NCBI GenBank assembly: GCA_015063035.1
Contig: SUTG01000011.1
Span: 1-44,776, forward strand
DNA: 44,776 bases
DNA from: Methanobrevibacter olleyae
GTDB taxonomy: Archaea > Methanobacteriota > Methanobacteria > Methanobacteriales > Methanobacteriaceae
Direction: 5' to 3'
Shown: positions 16,149 to 25,524 of the stretch, piece by piece
Position numbering within the stretch: position 1 is the stretch's first letter
How the letters are laid out: every line of letters starts with the position of its first letter
Notes under the pieces: generated by a model
Told to the model about the DNA's origin: nothing
Databases searched by the model: none
What the model saw: only the letters and a program-made list of their open reading frames with translations
Made by a program: the position numbers and the translations under genes

Positions 16149-19100
16149 ATGCAATTTCGAACACCATCAAAAAACAACACTATATCTAATAAGGATATTG
16201 AGAAGGAGTTTAAGAATCTAAGAAAAGAACTCTTGGATTTGACTTTAAGAAACCCTCTTCTAAGCTTTAAGGCAAGGAACAGGAATCTCAGTATCATCAA
16301 CCAATCACCTATGAATGCATATAAGATCCTTGTTTTAGAGAATAAGAAAATGTATTTCTCTCCTAATAAGGCAGAGACTAAAAAATCTAGAGCTCACACT
16401 TTTATAGATCAAACCAAGGAATTCCTATCATCTGAAAGCGATAAAACCTTAAAAGCAGATTTGACACCTAGTGAGCTTCAGAAAAGACTATTTTACATTG
16501 ACCAGCAATCAAAGACTATGGTTCAGGAGCAAGGTTACAACATCTTGTATATGGCTCTTGGTTTTATAGAATGGATTGACAAGAAGAAGCCAAGACAAAA
16601 GAATTTAGCTCCCCTCATTCTTATTCCAGTAGCTATGGAACGTAAAAAGGTTGGAAACTCATTCTCATTATCATGGACTGGGGAAGACATTCAAAACAAC
16701 ATTTCAATTCAAGCTAAATTGCGTGAAGCAGGAATTGAACTTCCTAAATTTGAGCAAACCTCATACATTGAAGGTGTAAACCAATACTTAGCAGAGGTTA
16801 AAAAGGCAATCAGGCCATTTAGCAAATGGGATGTTAAGGATGATGTTGCATTAGGATTCTTCTCATTCACTAAATTTGTCATGTATAATGACTTGAATCC
16901 TGAAAGTTGGAGCAAAGATGTTGATTTGACTAAAAATGAACTAATTCAGTCCATATTCAATCCAAGCAAAAATGTTTATGAGGATACATTTGAGGAAGAG
17001 GATGTGGATGAAAAACTCCATTATAAAACAATGTATCAGGTCTTGGATGCTGATTCATCACAAATTGCAGTTATTGAAAACGTGAAGGCAGGGCATAATC
17101 TAGTTGTAGAAGGGCCTCCAGGAACAGGTAAATCACAAACTATCGTAAACTTGATTGCAGAGCTTATTGCAGAGGGAAAGACAGTTCTTTTTGTAAGTGA
17201 AAAGATGGCTGCACTTGAAGTTGTAAAAAGCAGATTGGATAGTGTAGGCCTTGGAAAATTCGTATTGGAATTGCATTCACACAAGACTAGACGAAAGCAA
17301 TTCTTGAAAAACCTTAAGAAAGCCACTAACGTAAGGGCTACAAGAGATTTGAAATTGGACCAAACCTTAAGAAAGCTTGAAAACTTACGTGACCAACTGG
17401 ATCAATATGCTGAAATAATACATGCTCCTGTAGCTAATGTGAATCTGACACCATTTGAGTTATATGGTATGAAAGAATCTTCAGAGGATTATTTTGCAAG
17501 AGAGAATAAACTATTGCCTTTGGTTAGATTCAATAATGCTGAAGACTTATCCATGAAAGAACTGGATGATATCATAATTTCATTAGAGAATTTAGCAGAG
17601 CTATATTCCACTATCTCCAAAAACAATCCATGGAGCTATTGCAATCCAAAGAGTTTGCTTCCAGCGGATTTAAGGGAAATTGAATTGTTGATTAGGGATA
17701 GTTTAGAGTCTTTAAGTGATTTCAGATATGAAATGAATGTTGTAAATGAGGTATATGGCATTAAGATTCCTAATACCTTAAAAGAATATGAAGACTCCAT
17801 TACTGCCTTAAACATTTTAAATAGTGAAAGCGCTGACTTAGTGGATAGTTCCATCCTCCTTAGCAAATATTGGTTCAATAGTCCAGAGAAATCATTAGAG
17901 CTTATTAAGCTATTGCAGCATTATCAGCATGCATCTGGATTGTTCAATAAATTTTCAGATTATTTGCTTGTTGCAGACTTAGATACAATAATATATGATT
18001 TGGAAAAGGAATCCAATAAGAAATTCAAGCTATTTGGTGGAAATTCCCATAAGGAAGAGCTTTATAAGCTTTATAATGGCAATGTTCCAAGTGATAGGGA
18101 AGCATTGAATGACTTGATTAAAGTGAGAAATCATATAAAAATCAGACAAAGCCTAAAGGACAACGAAGCTCTTGGAAGAGCATATTTCGGTGATTTGTGG
18201 AGTGAAAATGCTAATGTGAATGATTTGAAGCAAGTGGCAAATTGGATGAATAAATTTGTTTATCTCCTTTCAAATGGCACTTTTAGTGAAACAACAGTTA
18301 AAATGCTTTCAAATGATCTTTTCCTTCCAGATATGGATTCCAGCATAGATGACTATGTTGAAAAGGGAAACAGATTCTATGAAAATCTTAAAAAACTGGA
18401 ATCAAAATTAAATCCAAGAAGCAAGATCATCTTTAAAAGAGAAACAGATGATGTTCCATTTGACAAATGGGAAAATCAATTGAATAAATGGAAAGGACAA
18501 TTATCAAGCTTACATCTATGGTCTCAATATTCCAATACCAAAAGGGCGTGCAGGAATAGTGAAGCGTCACTATTCATTAAAACCATTGAAAAAAGAAACA
18601 TTAAGAAAGATGACGTTAAACCAATGGTTTTAGGCAATTTTGCAGACAGCTTACTTAATATTGTATTCAATGAAAATGACACTTTAGCAACATTTATCGG
18701 AGAATTGCATGAAAACAGAATCAAGGAATTCAAGGACTTGGATGTAAAGATCATTAACTTGAATAGAAAAAGGATTTTCAATAAGCTAAACAGTGAAATT
18801 CCTAAGATATATGGCGCTGCAAATGACCCAGAAGCAAAGGTATTGGCAGGGGAATTTACAAGGAAAAGCGGGCATTTGCCTGTTAGGACATTACTTGAAA
18901 AGGCAGGGGGAACCATTAAGAAAATCAAGCCTGTCTTCATGATGAGTCCATTGTCCATTGCACAATATCTTGATCCAACCAATCCTAAATTGCAGTTTGA
19001 TGTGGTCATTTTCGACGAAGCAAGTCAAGTGAAACCTGAGGATGCATTAGGTGCATTCATGAGAGGCAAGACTGCTGTTGTAATGGGAGACACTCAACAA

Positions 19101-22100
19101 TTGCCTCCAACAAGCTTCTTTGACCAAATGACTGACAGTGAAAGTGGAGAAGAGGTTGCAACTGCTTTGGATATGGAAAGCATATTGCACTTATGTAAGT
19201 TATCATTCCCAGTAAAAATGCTTAAATGGCACTACAGAAGTCGTCATGAGTCTTTAATTAATATCTCTAACAGAGAGTTCTATGATAACGAACTATTGGT
19301 TTACCCATCTCCATCTCACACAGATCCGGAGTTAGGCCTTAAGTTCCATTACAATCCTAATACCCAATATCATAGAGGAGAAGGCTCAGCTAACCCTCTC
19401 GAAGCAAAAGATGTAGTTAAAGAGATATTCAAGCACTTTGAAAAATATGGAGATAAGAAGAGTTTAGGTGTAGGTACATTCTCTGTAGCTCAAAAGAATG
19501 CAATTCTAGAGGAATTGGAGATTGAAAGAAAGGCACACCCTGAATATGAGGCTCTCTTTTCAGAAAACAAGGAAGAGAGATTCTTTGTTAAAAACCTTGA
19601 AACAATCCAAGGTGATGAAAGGGATGTCATATTGATCAGTGTGGGATATGGTTATGACACAGAAGGAAAAATGTCTTTAAACTTCGGTCCATTGAATCAG
19701 GATGGGGGAGAAAGACGTTTAAATGTGCTTGTTACAAGAGCAAGAGAGAAATGTGTAGTGTTCACCAACTTCAGAGCTCATGATATTCATTTGACTGCTA
19801 ATCCTCCATTTGGTGTGAAATCATTGCAGGCATTCTTGGAATATGCTGAAAACTTGCATTATAATCAAGATGTTCAATATGATGATTACGATGAAGCTCC
19901 ATTTGAGGATGCAATTTGCAACTTCATAGCTGAAAATGGCTATGAAGTGGATAAAAAGGTAGGTTGTGCAGGATTTAGAGTGGATTTGGCTATAAGAGAT
20001 CCGGATAATCCTGGAAAATACATTTTAGGAATTCAATGTGATGGACATAATTATGCCTCAAGCAAGGTAGCTAGAGATAGGGATAGATTAAGAGAACAGG
20101 TCTTAAAGGGTTTAGGTTGGAATATCTATCATATCTGGTCTACTGATTGGTATAGAAACCGAGACTTGGCAAGAGCTAAGCTATTGGAGAATATTGAATC
20201 AACAATCGTCAATACTAAAGTCAAGGACTTGAAGAAAAAGATCAATGATGTTGAATCAATGAAAATCAATCCTGTAACCACTGTCATTCTTGGAAAAGAT
20301 GATGATGAAGATGATAATGAGGATTTCATAGAGAATAACGAAGAAAATGATATTGATATTCCAGAGAATATTTCTGATGATGTTGCTGATGATGTTTTAA
20401 ATCAGTTTTCAGATAATGATTTGGCAAATATTCAATCCATTAAAGAGGAAATCGATGAAAAGGCTGAAAAGGATAAGGAAAAAGAGGATTTAATCAACAG
20501 ATACTTGGAAGGATTTGATGATGAATTAACTAAAAACTCTTCCAAAGATGATAAAACTGATATTGATGATATTCATGACCTTATCGATGATGAAGGTGGA
20601 ATAGATATTCCATCTATAGAAAATATTAATGGAGAAGATAAGAAGCCTAATGTTCCTGTAAATAATAATATAGAAAAGAAAATCAATAAGAAAATTAATA
20701 AGAATAAAATTAATGAAAAAGAGGAAAAAACTGATATTCCTAAGGAAAATATCACAAAAGAGGAAAAAACTGATATTCCTAAGGAAAATATCACAAAAGA
20801 GGAAAAAACTGATATTCCTAAGGAAAATATCACAAAAGAGGAAAAGAAAAACAGATCTAATTCTCACACTAATCAGGAAAATGATAAAAAACCTAGTTCA
20901 AAACCTCAAAGAACTCCTAAATTCAATTCATCGAAAGATGCTGTTTCTTCTAAATTTGAGGGAAATTCAAAAGATAATAAAACCAGAGATAGAGATAAAG
21001 ATAGAGATAATTTATCAAATAAAAAAACTATCCAAGATGGTGAATTTAAAGTAAAAGAGAATTCTGCTAACTCTAATAAATCCAAAAATACTTCAAATAG
21101 GAATAAGAATAATGGAAGTACTGTAGCAAAATCTCTTATGAATAGATTAAGGAATATAGGGGATGAATTAGTAAATAATAGGCAAAAAAATGATTCTCAA
21201 TATGTAGAAGAGTCTCAAAAAGCTCAAAAAGAGCAAATTAAGAAGCAATCTAAAGACTCACATGATAAAAATCTTATTAAAAATGAACAAAAATCAAAAA
21301 AAGAAACACATAATGATGAGTCAATTGAATTTGAGGAAACCAATATTCCTGATCAAATTAATGAAAATATTAATAGTTTTGAAGAAAAGGAAAGTATTAT
21401 TAGTGATGATGATATAGAATATACTACTGAAGAAAATCTTGAAGTAGATATTAAAGAAACCATTAAAGAGGATAATATAGAAACATTTGAAGAGAAAATT
21501 AAAGATGAAATTGATGAAGATATCAAAGGTGCACCTGTATACAGTTTTGAAGAAGAAGATGAAGATGATGATGTAATTGTATACAGCCTTGAAGATGATA
21601 TAGAAGATATTTCAGAAGATATTCTACAAGAATTGAACGAAGAAGATTTAGAAACTAATGAATCTGAAGGTATTGAAAATATGAGAGAATATAAAGCTCC
21701 TAGAAGAAAGAAAGATGATGATCCATTTGATGATTCTCCAGATGTTATTGTTCCTATCAGTGCTGAAATAAGAAACAATAATCAAAATAATTCTTATGAA
21801 GAAGATGGTGATTTTATTTCTCCAATTGATGATGAGGAATTTGAAGAGTTTTATGAGGAATCTGAAGATTCCGTCAATGAAATAGATGAGAGTTCCCAAT
21901 CAAATAGGCAATCTCAAGCTAATGATGAGTCTTTCCATGACCCTAATAATCCAGATAGTCCATATTATTACAGTGCAGTAGGAATTGATAATGCTCTTAA
22001 AAAGAATGCTATTCAATATCCGAAAAATAATGATAGGAATAAAACTGGACTTGCAGGAACAGTTAATAGCTTAAAAAATGAGATGTTATACTTAAAAGCT

Positions 22101-23252
22101 TCTATGGATGAGATTGAAAATCCTACTGAAAGGGAAACAGTTTACGTTATAGACCGTAATGCAGATGATGAGTTCTTCGAGGATCCATATGACCCATATC
22201 AAGAGCCTGCAGTTATCGATAATACTCAAAATCCAAAAGAAGAGAACTATGAATCATTATTCACTTCTAAAAAACATGAATATTTAGATAAAATAGAGGA
22301 ATACACTAATTCATCCTCTGATGGATATGTAGACGATTCTGCTGATTCATTCTTAGATGATATTCAAGAATTTGATTATATTGATGATGAAACAGAACCT
22401 ATTATCCCTATAAGTTCATCAATTAATCAGGAAAATAATGTCTATGAAAGAAATGCAGAAACTTATCATGGAAGCGTTGAACCTATTATAGAAGACCATA
22501 TACCTGAGGAATCTATTATTATGGAAGACCTTGGAAATGGATATATTGATCCTGATGATGAGTTTGTGCATATTGATGACATAGAAATAGATGATGATAC
22601 ATTTGAAGATATAATAACAGATGTAGGCCAAGGTTATCAGGATATGGAAGATGAAAGAATCAAGGAAACCAATGTTCTTAGAGCGGTAGACAATACTAGA
22701 TTGACTCCTACTGGTGAATTAAGCGATTACATTGAAGATTATAAGGAAATTGAAAATTTAATCATTCAATCCCCATCTGAAATATATGAAGATGAGAAGA
22801 AATTGGCAACTGCAGTTATGGATATCGTAGCTGCTGAAGGTCCTGTTCATGTAGATACAGTTATCCGTAGATTAAGAGAAGGTTGCGGATTATCTCGTGC
22901 AGGAACTAAGTTTAAAAACACTATATTGGATGTAATAGATAGAAATGAGAACCATTTGCTATTGATTAGGGAGAATGATTTCCTATTCATTGACTATGAC
23001 TCTGTTAAGGTTAGAAAGAGAGTCAAACCTAATATTGATTTAATTTCAGAAGTAGAAATTGAAAAAGCCATTGATCTGGTATTAAGTTTTGAAAAATCAT
23101 TGAAAGTTCAAGACTTAGCTAAGAATGTTTCCAGAACTTTTGGTTTCAGATCAACTTCTAAAAAGACTTCCAATAAAATCACTTTAGTCATTGATTCAAT
23201 GATTGGCAAAGGAATTTTGGTTAATAACAATGGTAAAATTGAATTTAGATAA
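16149..23252 (+). CDS. Giant DUF4011-SF1 helicase-Vsr-like nuclease-DUF3320 protein
   Basis: 2367 aa. DUF4011-type N-terminus (LRKELLDLTLRNPLLSF, residues 24-40, then ILYMALGFIEW). UPF1/DNA2-like SF1 helicase: Walker A GPPGTGKS at 322-329, DEAS at 956-959, GDTQQLPPTSFF near 980, HYRSRHESL near 1028, TIQGDERD near 1151 and NVLVTRAREK near 1190. A Vsr/MTES_1575-type nuclease fold follows at about 1250-1340 (FRVDLAI with Asp1279; GIQCDG at 1294-1299; ARDRDRLREQVLKGLGW; IWSTDWYRN). Residues of about 1384-2180 are acidic and low complexity. The C-terminal 180 residues match DUF3320 (AAEGPVHVDTVIRRLREGCG). Proteins of this architecture occur in defence islands and have been reported as single-gene antiphage systems (Hhe-like, from memory), but may also be housekeeping. 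Gln1296 stands where relatives usually have Glu. It stands alone, with no methylase or partner nearby. Confidence 0.88.
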   Translation: MQFRTPSKNNTISNKDIEKEFKNLRKELLDLTLRNPLLSFKARNRNLSIINQSPMNAYKILVLENKKMYFSPNKAETKKSRAHTFIDQTKEFLSSESDKTLKADLTPSELQKRLFYIDQQSKTMVQEQGYNILYMALGFIEWIDKKKPRQKNLAPLILIPVAMERKKVGNSFSLSWTGEDIQNNISIQAKLREAGIELPKFEQTSYIEGVNQYLAEVKKAIRPFSKWDVKDDVALGFFSFTKFVMYNDLNPESWSKDVDLTKNELIQSIFNPSKNVYEDTFEEEDVDEKLHYKTMYQVLDADSSQIAVIENVKAGHNLVVEGPPGTGKSQTIVNLIAELIAEGKTVLFVSEKMAALEVVKSRLDSVGLGKFVLELHSHKTRRKQFLKNLKKATNVRATRDLKLDQTLRKLENLRDQLDQYAEIIHAPVANVNLTPFELYGMKESSEDYFARENKLLPLVRFNNAEDLSMKELDDIIISLENLAELYSTISKNNPWSYCNPKSLLPADLREIELLIRDSLESLSDFRYEMNVVNEVYGIKIPNTLKEYEDSITALNILNSESADLVDSSILLSKYWFNSPEKSLELIKLLQHYQHASGLFNKFSDYLLVADLDTIIYDLEKESNKKFKLFGGNSHKEELYKLYNGNVPSDREALNDLIKVRNHIKIRQSLKDNEALGRAYFGDLWSENANVNDLKQVANWMNKFVYLLSNGTFSETTVKMLSNDLFLPDMDSSIDDYVEKGNRFYENLKKLESKLNPRSKIIFKRETDDVPFDKWENQLNKWKGQLSSLHLWSQYSNTKRACRNSEASLFIKTIEKRNIKKDDVKPMVLGNFADSLLNIVFNENDTLATFIGELHENRIKEFKDLDVKIINLNRKRIFNKLNSEIPKIYGAANDPEAKVLAGEFTRKSGHLPVRTLLEKAGGTIKKIKPVFMMSPLSIAQYLDPTNPKLQFDVVIFDEASQVKPEDALGAFMRGKTAVVMGDTQQLPPTSFFDQMTDSESGEEVATALDMESILHLCKLSFPVKMLKWHYRSRHESLINISNREFYDNELLVYPSPSHTDPELGLKFHYNPNTQYHRGEGSANPLEAKDVVKEIFKHFEKYGDKKSLGVGTFSVAQKNAILEELEIERKAHPEYEALFSENKEERFFVKNLETIQGDERDVILISVGYGYDTEGKMSLNFGPLNQDGGERRLNVLVTRAREKCVVFTNFRAHDIHLTANPPFGVKSLQAFLEYAENLHYNQDVQYDDYDEAPFEDAICNFIAENGYEVDKKVGCAGFRVDLAIRDPDNPGKYILGIQCDGHNYASSKVARDRDRLREQVLKGLGWNIYHIWSTDWYRNRDLARAKLLENIESTIVNTKVKDLKKKINDVESMKINPVTTVILGKDDDEDDNEDFIENNEENDIDIPENISDDVADDVLNQFSDNDLANIQSIKEEIDEKAEKDKEKEDLINRYLEGFDDELTKNSSKDDKTDIDDIHDLIDDEGGIDIPSIENINGEDKKPNVPVNNNIEKKINKKINKNKINEKEEKTDIPKENITKEEKTDIPKENITKEEKTDIPKENITKEEKKNRSNSHTNQENDKKPSSKPQRTPKFNSSKDAVSSKFEGNSKDNKTRDRDKDRDNLSNKKTIQDGEFKVKENSANSNKSKNTSNRNKNNGSTVAKSLMNRLRNIGDELVNNRQKNDSQYVEESQKAQKEQIKKQSKDSHDKNLIKNEQKSKKETHNDESIEFEETNIPDQINENINSFEEKESIISDDDIEYTTEENLEVDIKETIKEDNIETFEEKIKDEIDEDIKGAPVYSFEEEDEDDDVIVYSLEDDIEDISEDILQELNEEDLETNESEGIENMREYKAPRRKKDDDPFDDSPDVIVPISAEIRNNNQNNSYEEDGDFISPIDDEEFEEFYEESEDSVNEIDESSQSNRQSQANDESFHDPNNPDSPYYYSAVGIDNALKKNAIQYPKNNDRNKTGLAGTVNSLKNEMLYLKASMDEIENPTERETVYVIDRNADDEFFEDPYDPYQEPAVIDNTQNPKEENYESLFTSKKHEYLDKIEEYTNSSSDGYVDDSADSFLDDIQEFDYIDDETEPIIPISSSINQENNVYERNAETYHGSVEPIIEDHIPEESIIMEDLGNGYIDPDDEFVHIDDIEIDDDTFEDIITDVGQGYQDMEDERIKETNVLRAVDNTRLTPTGELSDYIEDYKEIENLIIQSPSEIYEDEKKLATAVMDIVAAEGPVHVDTVIRRLREGCGLSRAGTKFKNTILDVIDRNENHLLLIRENDFLFIDYDSVKVRKRVKPNIDLISEVEIEKAIDLVLSFEKSLKVQDLAKNVSRTFGFRSTSKKTSNKITLVIDSMIGKGILVNNNGKIEFR
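20721..20846. repeat. Three in-frame 39-bp repeats inside giant gene
   Basis: Identical 39-bp units at 20721-20759, 20760-20798 and 20799-20837, with the first bases of a fourth. Each encodes the 13-residue unit EEKTDIPKENITK in the acidic insert. Perfect identity at DNA level implies recent expansion. Confidence 0.95.
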
Positions 23253-23625
23253 TTCAATTTACTATTTATTCCTTATATTAAATTTTTACTATCACAAACC
23301 AATATTCTTATCAGTACTATTAAAATTATTATATCTTTCTTTAATATTTTTAATATATTTGGTTAATTTTATATTATATAACTATTGGATGTATATGCTT
23401 TTGTTATTTTATACATTTTTTGGCTATTTTTATTTTAATCCATAATTAATTTTTATTCATTTTTCTAATTACTGATCAATTATTTTTCTTATCCCATAAT
23501 TTTCTAAAATGATAATTATTAAACTTCTAATAGTTATTACTTTTTTTATATAAATTATTATTAATATATTACTTTTTTCTTAATTAGTAATACTTGAATT
23601 TTTATTGCATTATTAAAAAAATTAG

Positions 23626-23794
23626 AAAAAGTATTACTTAAGAATCAGCTAAAGTATTAAAAATTTGATAATTATTAATACTTTTTATTTTTATAAAAGT
23701 AATAAAAAATCTATAATTTTTATTATTAAATAATAAATAATTCATAAAAAGTATTACTCCATAATATAATAATTTTTTTATAAAAAGTATTACT
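23626..23794. repeat. Three identical AAAAAGTATTACT 13-mers
   Basis: Exact copies lie at 23626-23638, 23746-23758 and 23782-23794. The reverse-complement core AGTAATACT occurs at 23586-23594, and partial copies (aaagtatta, attaatacttttta) lie between. They may be protein-binding sites or duplicated AT-rich DNA. Confidence 0.6.
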
Positions 23795-24105
23795 TTTTAA
23801 CAAAATCCTTAATTTTTATATTTTTTAATTAATGAAGCAGATAATTATAAAATTCATTATTAGTTTACATATATCAAAACAATTTCATGATCAAAATTTT
23901 GGAATTTTATAAAATTATGTTGATTATGAAATGATGAAAAATTTTAAAATTTTTCAAAAAAATATATTGGTTATATTGCAAGTGTAAAATTAAAAAATAT
24001 TAGCTAAAAATCAAAAATGCTCTAAAATACTAAAATGATACAAATCCATATACATCAATTTGTATTTTTTTGATAATTTAGAATATTTAATTTTCAAAAA
24101 TATTT

Positions 24106-24139
24106 TTTACTTCGTTATACTGTAGTTTAACGAAGTAAA
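24106..24139. repeat. Inverted repeat with 12-bp arms around TACTTCGTTA
   Basis: TTTACTTCGTTA (24106-24117) and its exact complement (24128-24139) flank a 10-bp spacer. It could be an operator for a dimeric regulator or an RNA hairpin. Confidence 0.7.
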
Positions 24140-24433: not shown

Positions 24434-24620
24434 AACTATTGGTATAAATTAAAACTATATTTTATGTGAAATAATAAAAAAATTGTTTTATAAATACGAA
24501 TAGTTTAATTATGCATAAATAGTTAGAAATAATACAAATAGTTTATATTTAACCAAATAGTTTTATAAATATGGAATAGTTTATAATTAATTAAACAGTT
24601 TCTAAAATATGAAATAGTTT
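24434..24620. repeat. 19-bp-period array of AATAGTTT direct repeats
   Basis: The octamer AATAGTTT or a one-base variant begins at 24499, 24518, 24537, 24556, 24575, 24594 and 24613, each exactly 19 bp after the last. The remaining 11 bases of each unit are AT-rich and variable. A degenerate copy sits at 24481. Two copies in reverse orientation (AACTATT at 24434, AACTATA at 24453) also lie 19 bp apart. The constant phase with poorly conserved spacers argues for repeated protein contacts, as in iterons or operator arrays. Confidence 0.85.
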
Positions 24621-24718: not shown

Positions 24719-25003
24719 TTACTTTATTTCTTCTAATTCTTCCAGTTCAGCTTTAAATTTATAATCCTGGAATTGATAGTACTTAAATCTATAAGGCATT
24801 TTAGCTCTTTTCGGCCTTTTTTTAGCTTTAGGTTTATTCTTGTTTTTAAGCTTATCCAATTGAGCTCTCTTCTTATCCCTATTTCTTTGAGCTCTTTCAG
24901 CTTGAGTTGTAGCTAACAACTTCTTATTTTTTCTATGATGAGGAGAATTATAAGAGTTAGCTTGAACTAGTCGTCTCCTGCTTCTAATTAATGTAATTGA
25001 CAT
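24719..25003 (-). CDS. Small, very basic hypothetical protein
   Basis: 94 aa, not recognised. It is rich in Lys, Arg and Gln with the stretches SRRRLVQ, HHRKNKK, KNKNKPKAKKRPKRAK and a more acidic C-terminus (KAELEELEEIK). There is no membrane segment or signal peptide. The charge suggests nucleic-acid binding (inference). The stop codon lies about 100 bp from the 19-bp-period repeat array, which is therefore downstream of this gene. The start has only a weak upstream GATAGGT site. Coding status is likely but unproven. Confidence 0.55.
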   Translation of the reverse strand: MSITLIRSRRRLVQANSYNSPHHRKNKKLLATTQAERAQRNRDKKRAQLDKLKNKNKPKAKKRPKRAKMPYRFKYYQFQDYKFKAELEELEEIK

Positions 25004-25073: not shown

Positions 25074-25253
25074 CTAAATGGTATTAGTTCTTTTATCTAA
25101 AGTATTTTGAATCTCATCAATCCTATCAACAACAACACGGATAGCTTGTTCTCCATTTCTGGTAGGATTGATACCTTGTTCTACTAATAATGCATCTCTA
25201 ATATCTCTTAATCTATCAATGGAATCAATTTTCATTATAGTACTGTAAAACAT
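25074..25253 (-). CDS. Small hypothetical protein
   Basis: 59 aa from ATG at 25253, chosen because GGTGA lies 5 nt upstream; a GTG four codons earlier overlaps that site. The sequence is helical and charged (KIDSIDRLRDIRDALLVEQG, then VVVDRIDEIQNTLDK). No family recognised. It lies upstream of, and probably in one transcript with, the 94-aa basic protein (70 bp gap). A ribosome binding site and balanced amino-acid composition make it a plausible real gene. Confidence 0.5.
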   Translation of the reverse strand: MFYSTIMKIDSIDRLRDIRDALLVEQGINPTRNGEQAIRVVVDRIDEIQNTLDKRTNTI

Positions 25254-25524
25254 ATTATTCACCAAATAATCTAAATAAGACTAAGTAAATTCATCAATAA
25301 TGAATTGTATTATGATAAAATTTTTAAGTTAATTCTTAATTAAATATATGAATTTTCTAATATTAATAGTTATTAGTAATTAAAATAAATACAAAAATAC
25401 ATTGAAACAATTTTAAAAGATTAAATTAGAAATTGAAAAATAATTAAAAAAATTAAATTAGAAATTAAAAAATAATTAAAAATAATTAAAATAAAAAAAG
25501 AGTAATATCTTTAAAGATATTACA
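25254..25524. other. AT-rich spacer with adhesin terminator
   Basis: About 270 bp with no gene. It holds the presumed promoter of the two small leftward ORFs at its left side and, at its right side, the terminator palindrome of the adhesin-like gene. Confidence 0.5.
25502..25523 (-). terminator. Perfect 22-bp palindrome after adhesin stop codon
   Basis: Two 11-bp arms (GTAATATCTTT and its complement) meet without a spacer one base past the stop codon. On the transcribed strand they are followed by TCTTTTTTTATTTT, a terminator-like layout. Confidence 0.75.

Follow-up and report, generated by a model that had tools for sequence, protein, structure and literature searches.

A phased array of octamers with a 19-bp period beside a probable XerA/dif site at the predicted replication terminus of Methanobrevibacter olleyae

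A chromosomal locus of Methanobrevibacter olleyae combines a dif-like dyad with a phased array of short direct repeats, and we are highly confident that it is the replication terminus and dif locus of this gut methanogen, at which chromosome dimers would be resolved. It is located in a stretch of 44,776 nucleotides (contig SUTG01000011.1), here called the window, within a 1.47-kb AT-rich gap between a DUF4011 helicase gene and the gene for a 94-aa protein. This intergenic region is composite and contains a cluster of AGTAWTACT palindromes, an Orc1/Cdc6-type ORB core, the dif-like site and the 19-bp array (Table 1). The array is very probably a set of protein-binding sites under selection, binding itself being predicted from the pattern of conservation. 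As a whole, the locus is of a known kind, archaeal XerA/dif, with additional features that we did not find described in the open-licence literature, as far as the text of these papers was available.

Table 1. Features of the terminus region, with positions as in the window
Feature	Position	Strand	Description
AGTAWTACT palindrome cluster	23586..23794	.	copies at 23586, 23630, 23750, 23786
ORB-type core	23976..23988	-	TTTACACTTGCAA here (one mismatch), TTTACACTTGAAA in congeners
ORB-to-dif conserved stretch	23989..24108	.	75-93% identical in G009, G010, G002, G004
dif-like 28-mer	24109..24136	.	ACTTCGTTATA-CTGTAG-TTTAACGAAGT; 11+6+11; kept in nine genus-mates
Inverted octamer pair, 19 bp apart	24434..24459	-	AACTATT and AACTATA
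Degenerate eighth octamer	24481..24488	+	AATTGTTT, 18 bp before first array copy
Octamer array	24499..24620	+	seven AATAGTTT-type octamers, period exactly 19 bp, 11-bp unconserved spacers; starts at 24499, 24518, 24537, 24556, 24575, 24594, 24613
94-aa basic protein gene	24719..25003	-	conserved, no family match
63-aa ORF	25074..25265	-	conserved neighbour, no family match

The sequence-only reading had described seven direct repeats with an exact 19-bp period and, upstream of them, two reverse copies 19 bp apart. Both descriptions were confirmed, the direct copies starting at 24499 to 24613 and the reverse ones lying at 24434-24440 and 24453-24459; a third inverted octamer, still weaker, is found at about 24415. 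Five of the seven direct octamers are exactly AATAGTTT, and AATAGTTA and AACAGTTT carry one mismatch each. Autocorrelation at 19-bp spacing amounts to 42, as compared to 4 at most in 200 first-order Markov resamplings. When the 1.47-kb intergenic region was searched for chains of any octamer containing G or C at periods of 10-60 bp, the longest chain had seven units, as opposed to two to four in 60 shuffles. Identity from octamer to octamer is 0.93, while that of the spacers is 0.41, with 0.40 expected by chance, and this combination of a conserved octamer and phase with spacers at chance level supports the general reading of the repeats as a protein-binding array. The same reading had proposed a search for further copies, and exact three-unit chains were found at the array locus only in the 103 contigs of the own genome (G000), the sole one-mismatch chain of three units elsewhere being a simple repeat on contig C68. 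The array region gave no match in searches with Rfam, tRNA, Pfam and NCBIfam models. A viral contig, apparently from a bacterial phage (L283, 4837-5311), contains AATAGTTT within a tandem repeat of about 25 nearly identical 19-bp units; we did not accept it as a relative of the array, the likeness probably being a coincidence.

The dif-like dyad, ACTTCGTTATACTGTAGTTTAACGAAGT, is a 28-bp imperfect inverted repeat in non-coding DNA about 0.3 kb to the left of the array. The exact site occurs once in the own genome and is 96-100% conserved among the five species compared; when two mismatches or fewer to the pattern are allowed, 9 of the 19 genomes of the genus have it, as do six of the eight complete ones. 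Most genus-mates carry one copy of the exact CTGTAG site, but there are related dyads in other places that differ in the 6-bp spacer, among them that of a full second module in G014. In G012, a genome in one contig of 2,937,203 bp, cdc6 lies at 0.9 kb and the dif-like site at 1,480,135, antipodal to cdc6/oriC, and the GC skew, computed from 80 samples of 20 kb, has a mean of +0.061 up to a change point at 1,496,351 (resolution about 18 kb) and of -0.066 beyond it. From this antipodal position at the skew switch we conclude that the locus is the terminus and the dyad a probable XerA site. In G020 (2,868,093 bp), too, cdc6, at 2,026,667, and a dif-like site, at 621,858, are separated by about 49% of the genome, but several related dyads are present in this genome. 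For the window itself the evidence consists of gene convergence and skew: the genes on either side point towards about 24 kb, where the cumulative GC skew also turns, to fall from there on apart from a rise confined to 28-32 kb. Moreover, genes for XerA-type recombinases, an assignment based on PF00589 matches, are present in G000, G009, G012, and G020. Thus, the 28-mer is probably the site of XerA, whose action on it is predicted from sequence. For Methanosphaera stadtmanae, Cortez et al. 2010 (PMC2958812) place the predicted dif about 180 degrees from oriC, with imperfect inverted repeats around it.

The other elements of the intergenic region differ in how widely they are kept. According to the Ori-Finder 2 paper (PMC4164010), the ORB motif of the Methanobacteriaceae has a TTTACACTTGAAA core; this core is found as a pair next to cdc6 and as a single copy beside dif, where it is present as TT[TA]CACTTGAAAT. 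From the start of the ORB core to the dif core the distance is 131-135 bp in most loci of the genus, the exceptions being 123 in G002 and, taken on the other side, 147 in G011. It is similar in G061 and G063 (genus g6) and in G032 (genus g15), and is 161 in G122 (genus g5), and at dif in these three genera no 19-bp array was seen. Judged from the loci compared, the ORB-dif spacing is thus a family-wide feature and the array a genus-level addition, which makes the array more likely modulatory than essential. The conserved stretch between ORB and dif holds an imperfect inverted repeat, TGCTCTAAAAT / TTTAGAATATT, as well as ACATATACATCAA. On the ORB side there are two to six AGTAWTACT palindromes per locus in most loci, and the spacings of 44 and 36 bp are kept in relatives, the background being 37 copies in 1.6 Mb of G012, some other clusters included. 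Such clusters outside the terminus of G012 are located at about 714 kb, 2,097 kb, and 2,541 kb.

Within the genus, dif is accompanied by a strong 19-bp phase in G000, G009, G002, and G010, i.e. multi-unit arrays are found at four of the nine assembled dif loci, and a second module in G014 adds to these. The expectation that the phase would be conserved in relatives therefore held in part: the phase recurs at the same place in G009, G002, and G010, as well as in the second G014 module, but the dif loci of G004, G008, G011, and G012 and the main one of G014 have it in degenerate form or lack it. The side and orientation of the units relative to dif vary as well, the units lying mainly in plus orientation on the right in G000, and on the left in G014 and G004. 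The second G014 module (G014:C26:43590-43970) comprises an ORB, a dif-like site with the spacer CCAAGG and six octamers with a period of 19 bp, with identities of 0.96 for the octamers and 0.39 for the spacers, and lacks the 94-aa gene. G014 is a metagenome assembly, and C26 may come from another strain; this module (L255, 9591-9970) may be a duplicate, a mobile copy or a binning artefact. Beside the dif site of G020 a 19-bp lag was spotted on visual inspection; three other lags rank above it there, and a periodicity at this locus is tentatively suggested.

The genes around the locus encode, besides the helicase, the 94-aa and 63-aa proteins, for neither of which Pfam or NCBIfam gave a family match, and an Ig-like surface protein. 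The DUF4011 gene (16149-23252, forward strand, 2367 aa) lies directly beside the terminus, and its product is similar to anti-phage proteins, the NCBIfam matches to ProA and Hhe, both anti-phage, covering part of the length and scoring below the cut-offs. The 94-aa protein, which the sequence-only reading had suggested testing as a binder of the array, has conserved homologues in seven more species of the genus and weakly conserved ones in another genus, and its gene adjoins dif in the Methanobrevibacter-type genus only, the homologues in other genera not being near dif. In addition, the array module of G014 does without the gene, and the structure model is mostly one long helix of low confidence. 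The protein is therefore an unlikely binder and probably stands outside the mechanism. A winged-helix regulator lies beside a 94-aa homologue in G022 only and is absent there in the other genomes checked, and this association was dropped.

Several other explanations of the array have to be weighed. A functionless, decayed tandem duplication might be expected in AT-rich DNA, which readily yields weak repeats, and the array is indeed degenerate in several congeners. Yet adjacent spacers, with an identity of 0.36 against 0.40 by chance, are no more alike than chance would have it, even though the octamers are 93% identical, and shuffled sequence yields chains of four units at most; these observations argue for selected protein sites and make decay very improbable. 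Just as improbable is that the region is an origin of replication, for which the sequence-only reading had proposed tests, or that the units are iterons of a plasmid or virus integrated here. The AT-rich intergenic region, the nearby ORB core and the iteron-like 19-bp spacing would fit, but oriC with cdc6 and paired ORB cores lies elsewhere, no replication gene adjoins the array, and the locus is orthologous across species. Moreover, the locus lies across the chromosome from oriC, where the GC skew switches, and next to the dif-like site, and the skew, proposed as a check for an origin, goes from plus to minus in G012, the wrong direction for an origin. On the position of cdc6 and the skew we reject an origin.

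Distinctly unlikely, although less so, is the view that the array consists of operators of a transcription regulator, the same protein autoregulating its gene elsewhere. A search not aimed at regulators brought up similar AAYAGTT repeats with a 19-bp period immediately in front of a small gene with Pfam winged-helix matches in G005, G006, G013, and G016 (L284, L285, L286, L289). However, a matrix built from the dif arrays alone picks out the winged-helix upstream regions of G006 (p=0.003) and G016 (p=0.025) only, and those of the orthologues in G000 and G009 are not significant (p=0.09 each). As the matrix test is unsupportive in the own genome, we do not accept the winged-helix regulator as the binder and keep it as a weak lead. 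Furthermore, both flanking genes have the array on their 3' side, the left one ending more than 1 kb before it, and the array is therefore not an upstream operator of either neighbour. We take more seriously, while still thinking it rather unlikely, that the octamers bind a protein that arrests or slows forks or condenses the terminus in the manner of Tus/Ter or MatP/matS, dif being merely co-located. The position antipodal to oriC and at the skew switch (G012) and the multiple oriented units agree with such an organiser, which could tolerate a variable side and number of units, but the orientation relative to dif is not conserved (G000 versus G014 and G004) and the genome search for three-unit chains showed no dispersed set of sites. 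We know of no archaeal homologue of Tus, RTP or MatP.

The opinion we favour, and rate as about evenly balanced, is that the array provides Xer/dif, or the terminus, with an accessory platform for protein binding; that its role is specifically an accessory one beside dif we hold with slightly less than even confidence. A sequence-specific protein would bind the octamers cooperatively, with one unit per 19 bp, and the bound octamers would form a nucleoprotein filament next to dif. Possibly together with Orc1/Cdc6 on the ORB, this filament would constitute an accessory or regulatory platform for recombination by XerA or, alternatively, would keep the sister termini together. One may further speculate, although we consider this unlikely, that Orc1/Cdc6 on the single ORB and the cooperative filament couple the completion of replication to XerA recombination independently of FtsK. 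An essential role is contradicted by the distribution: with arrays at four of nine loci of the genus and none seen in g5, g6, and g15, the array is not essential to the XerA/dif system of the family. Against an accessory platform it has to be noted that species differ in the side of dif on which the units lie and in how these are oriented, unlike in classical cer-type accessory sites. XerA from Pyrococcus abyssi recombines in vitro without a partner (PMC2958812), which likewise counts against such a platform.

Known systems share some of these features. With archaeal XerA/dif of Thermococcales, M. stadtmanae, and Sulfolobales (PMC2958812), the locus has in common the 28-bp 11+6+11 dyad, the location at the terminus, a single XerA-type recombinase and conserved sequence around dif, whereas the 19-bp array, the near-fixed ORB and the AGTAWTACT cluster were not found described in the accessible text of open-licence papers. 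The Methanobacteriaceae ORB motif (PMC4164010) shares the core, but this is single at the terminus and paired at oriC. Unlike at an Orc1/Cdc6 origin, there is no adjacent cdc6, the ORB is single and the skew goes from plus to minus. At the plasmid Xer sites cer and psi, proteins bind within a few hundred bp of the recombination core. The same holds here for the putative recombination core and protein-binding sites, but in this case the units are seven and phased, and their side, position and number vary between species. Plasmid iterons and parS/parC consist of short direct repeats with fixed phase and variable spacers, just like the array, which in contrast to them lies at the chromosomal terminus and has no adjacent rep or par genes.

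Dyads of the form TTCGTTATA-N6-TWTAACGAA with many different 6-bp spacers are found family-wide, several per genome (e.g. in G020, G134, and G135), and a control with the reversed pattern gave almost always zero. These variable-spacer dyads may be sites of mobile elements that exploit XerA. Two short contigs of the own genome, C102 and C103 (L264, L265), overlap in a stretch that contains a dif-like dyad whose spacer has a CCATAT-type core, carry virus- or plasmid-like genes and are possibly one element with an Xer site. The dyad pattern is also contained in sixteen stretches of viral contigs (L267-L282).

Most archaea have XerA and dif and no FtsK, and how the place and timing of dimer resolution are controlled is an open question (PMC2958812, PMC8371274, PMC5357621). 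A terminus with a near-fixed ORB-dif distance, a palindrome cluster and a phased array offers defined DNA baits and mutants with which this question of dimer-resolution control may be addressed.
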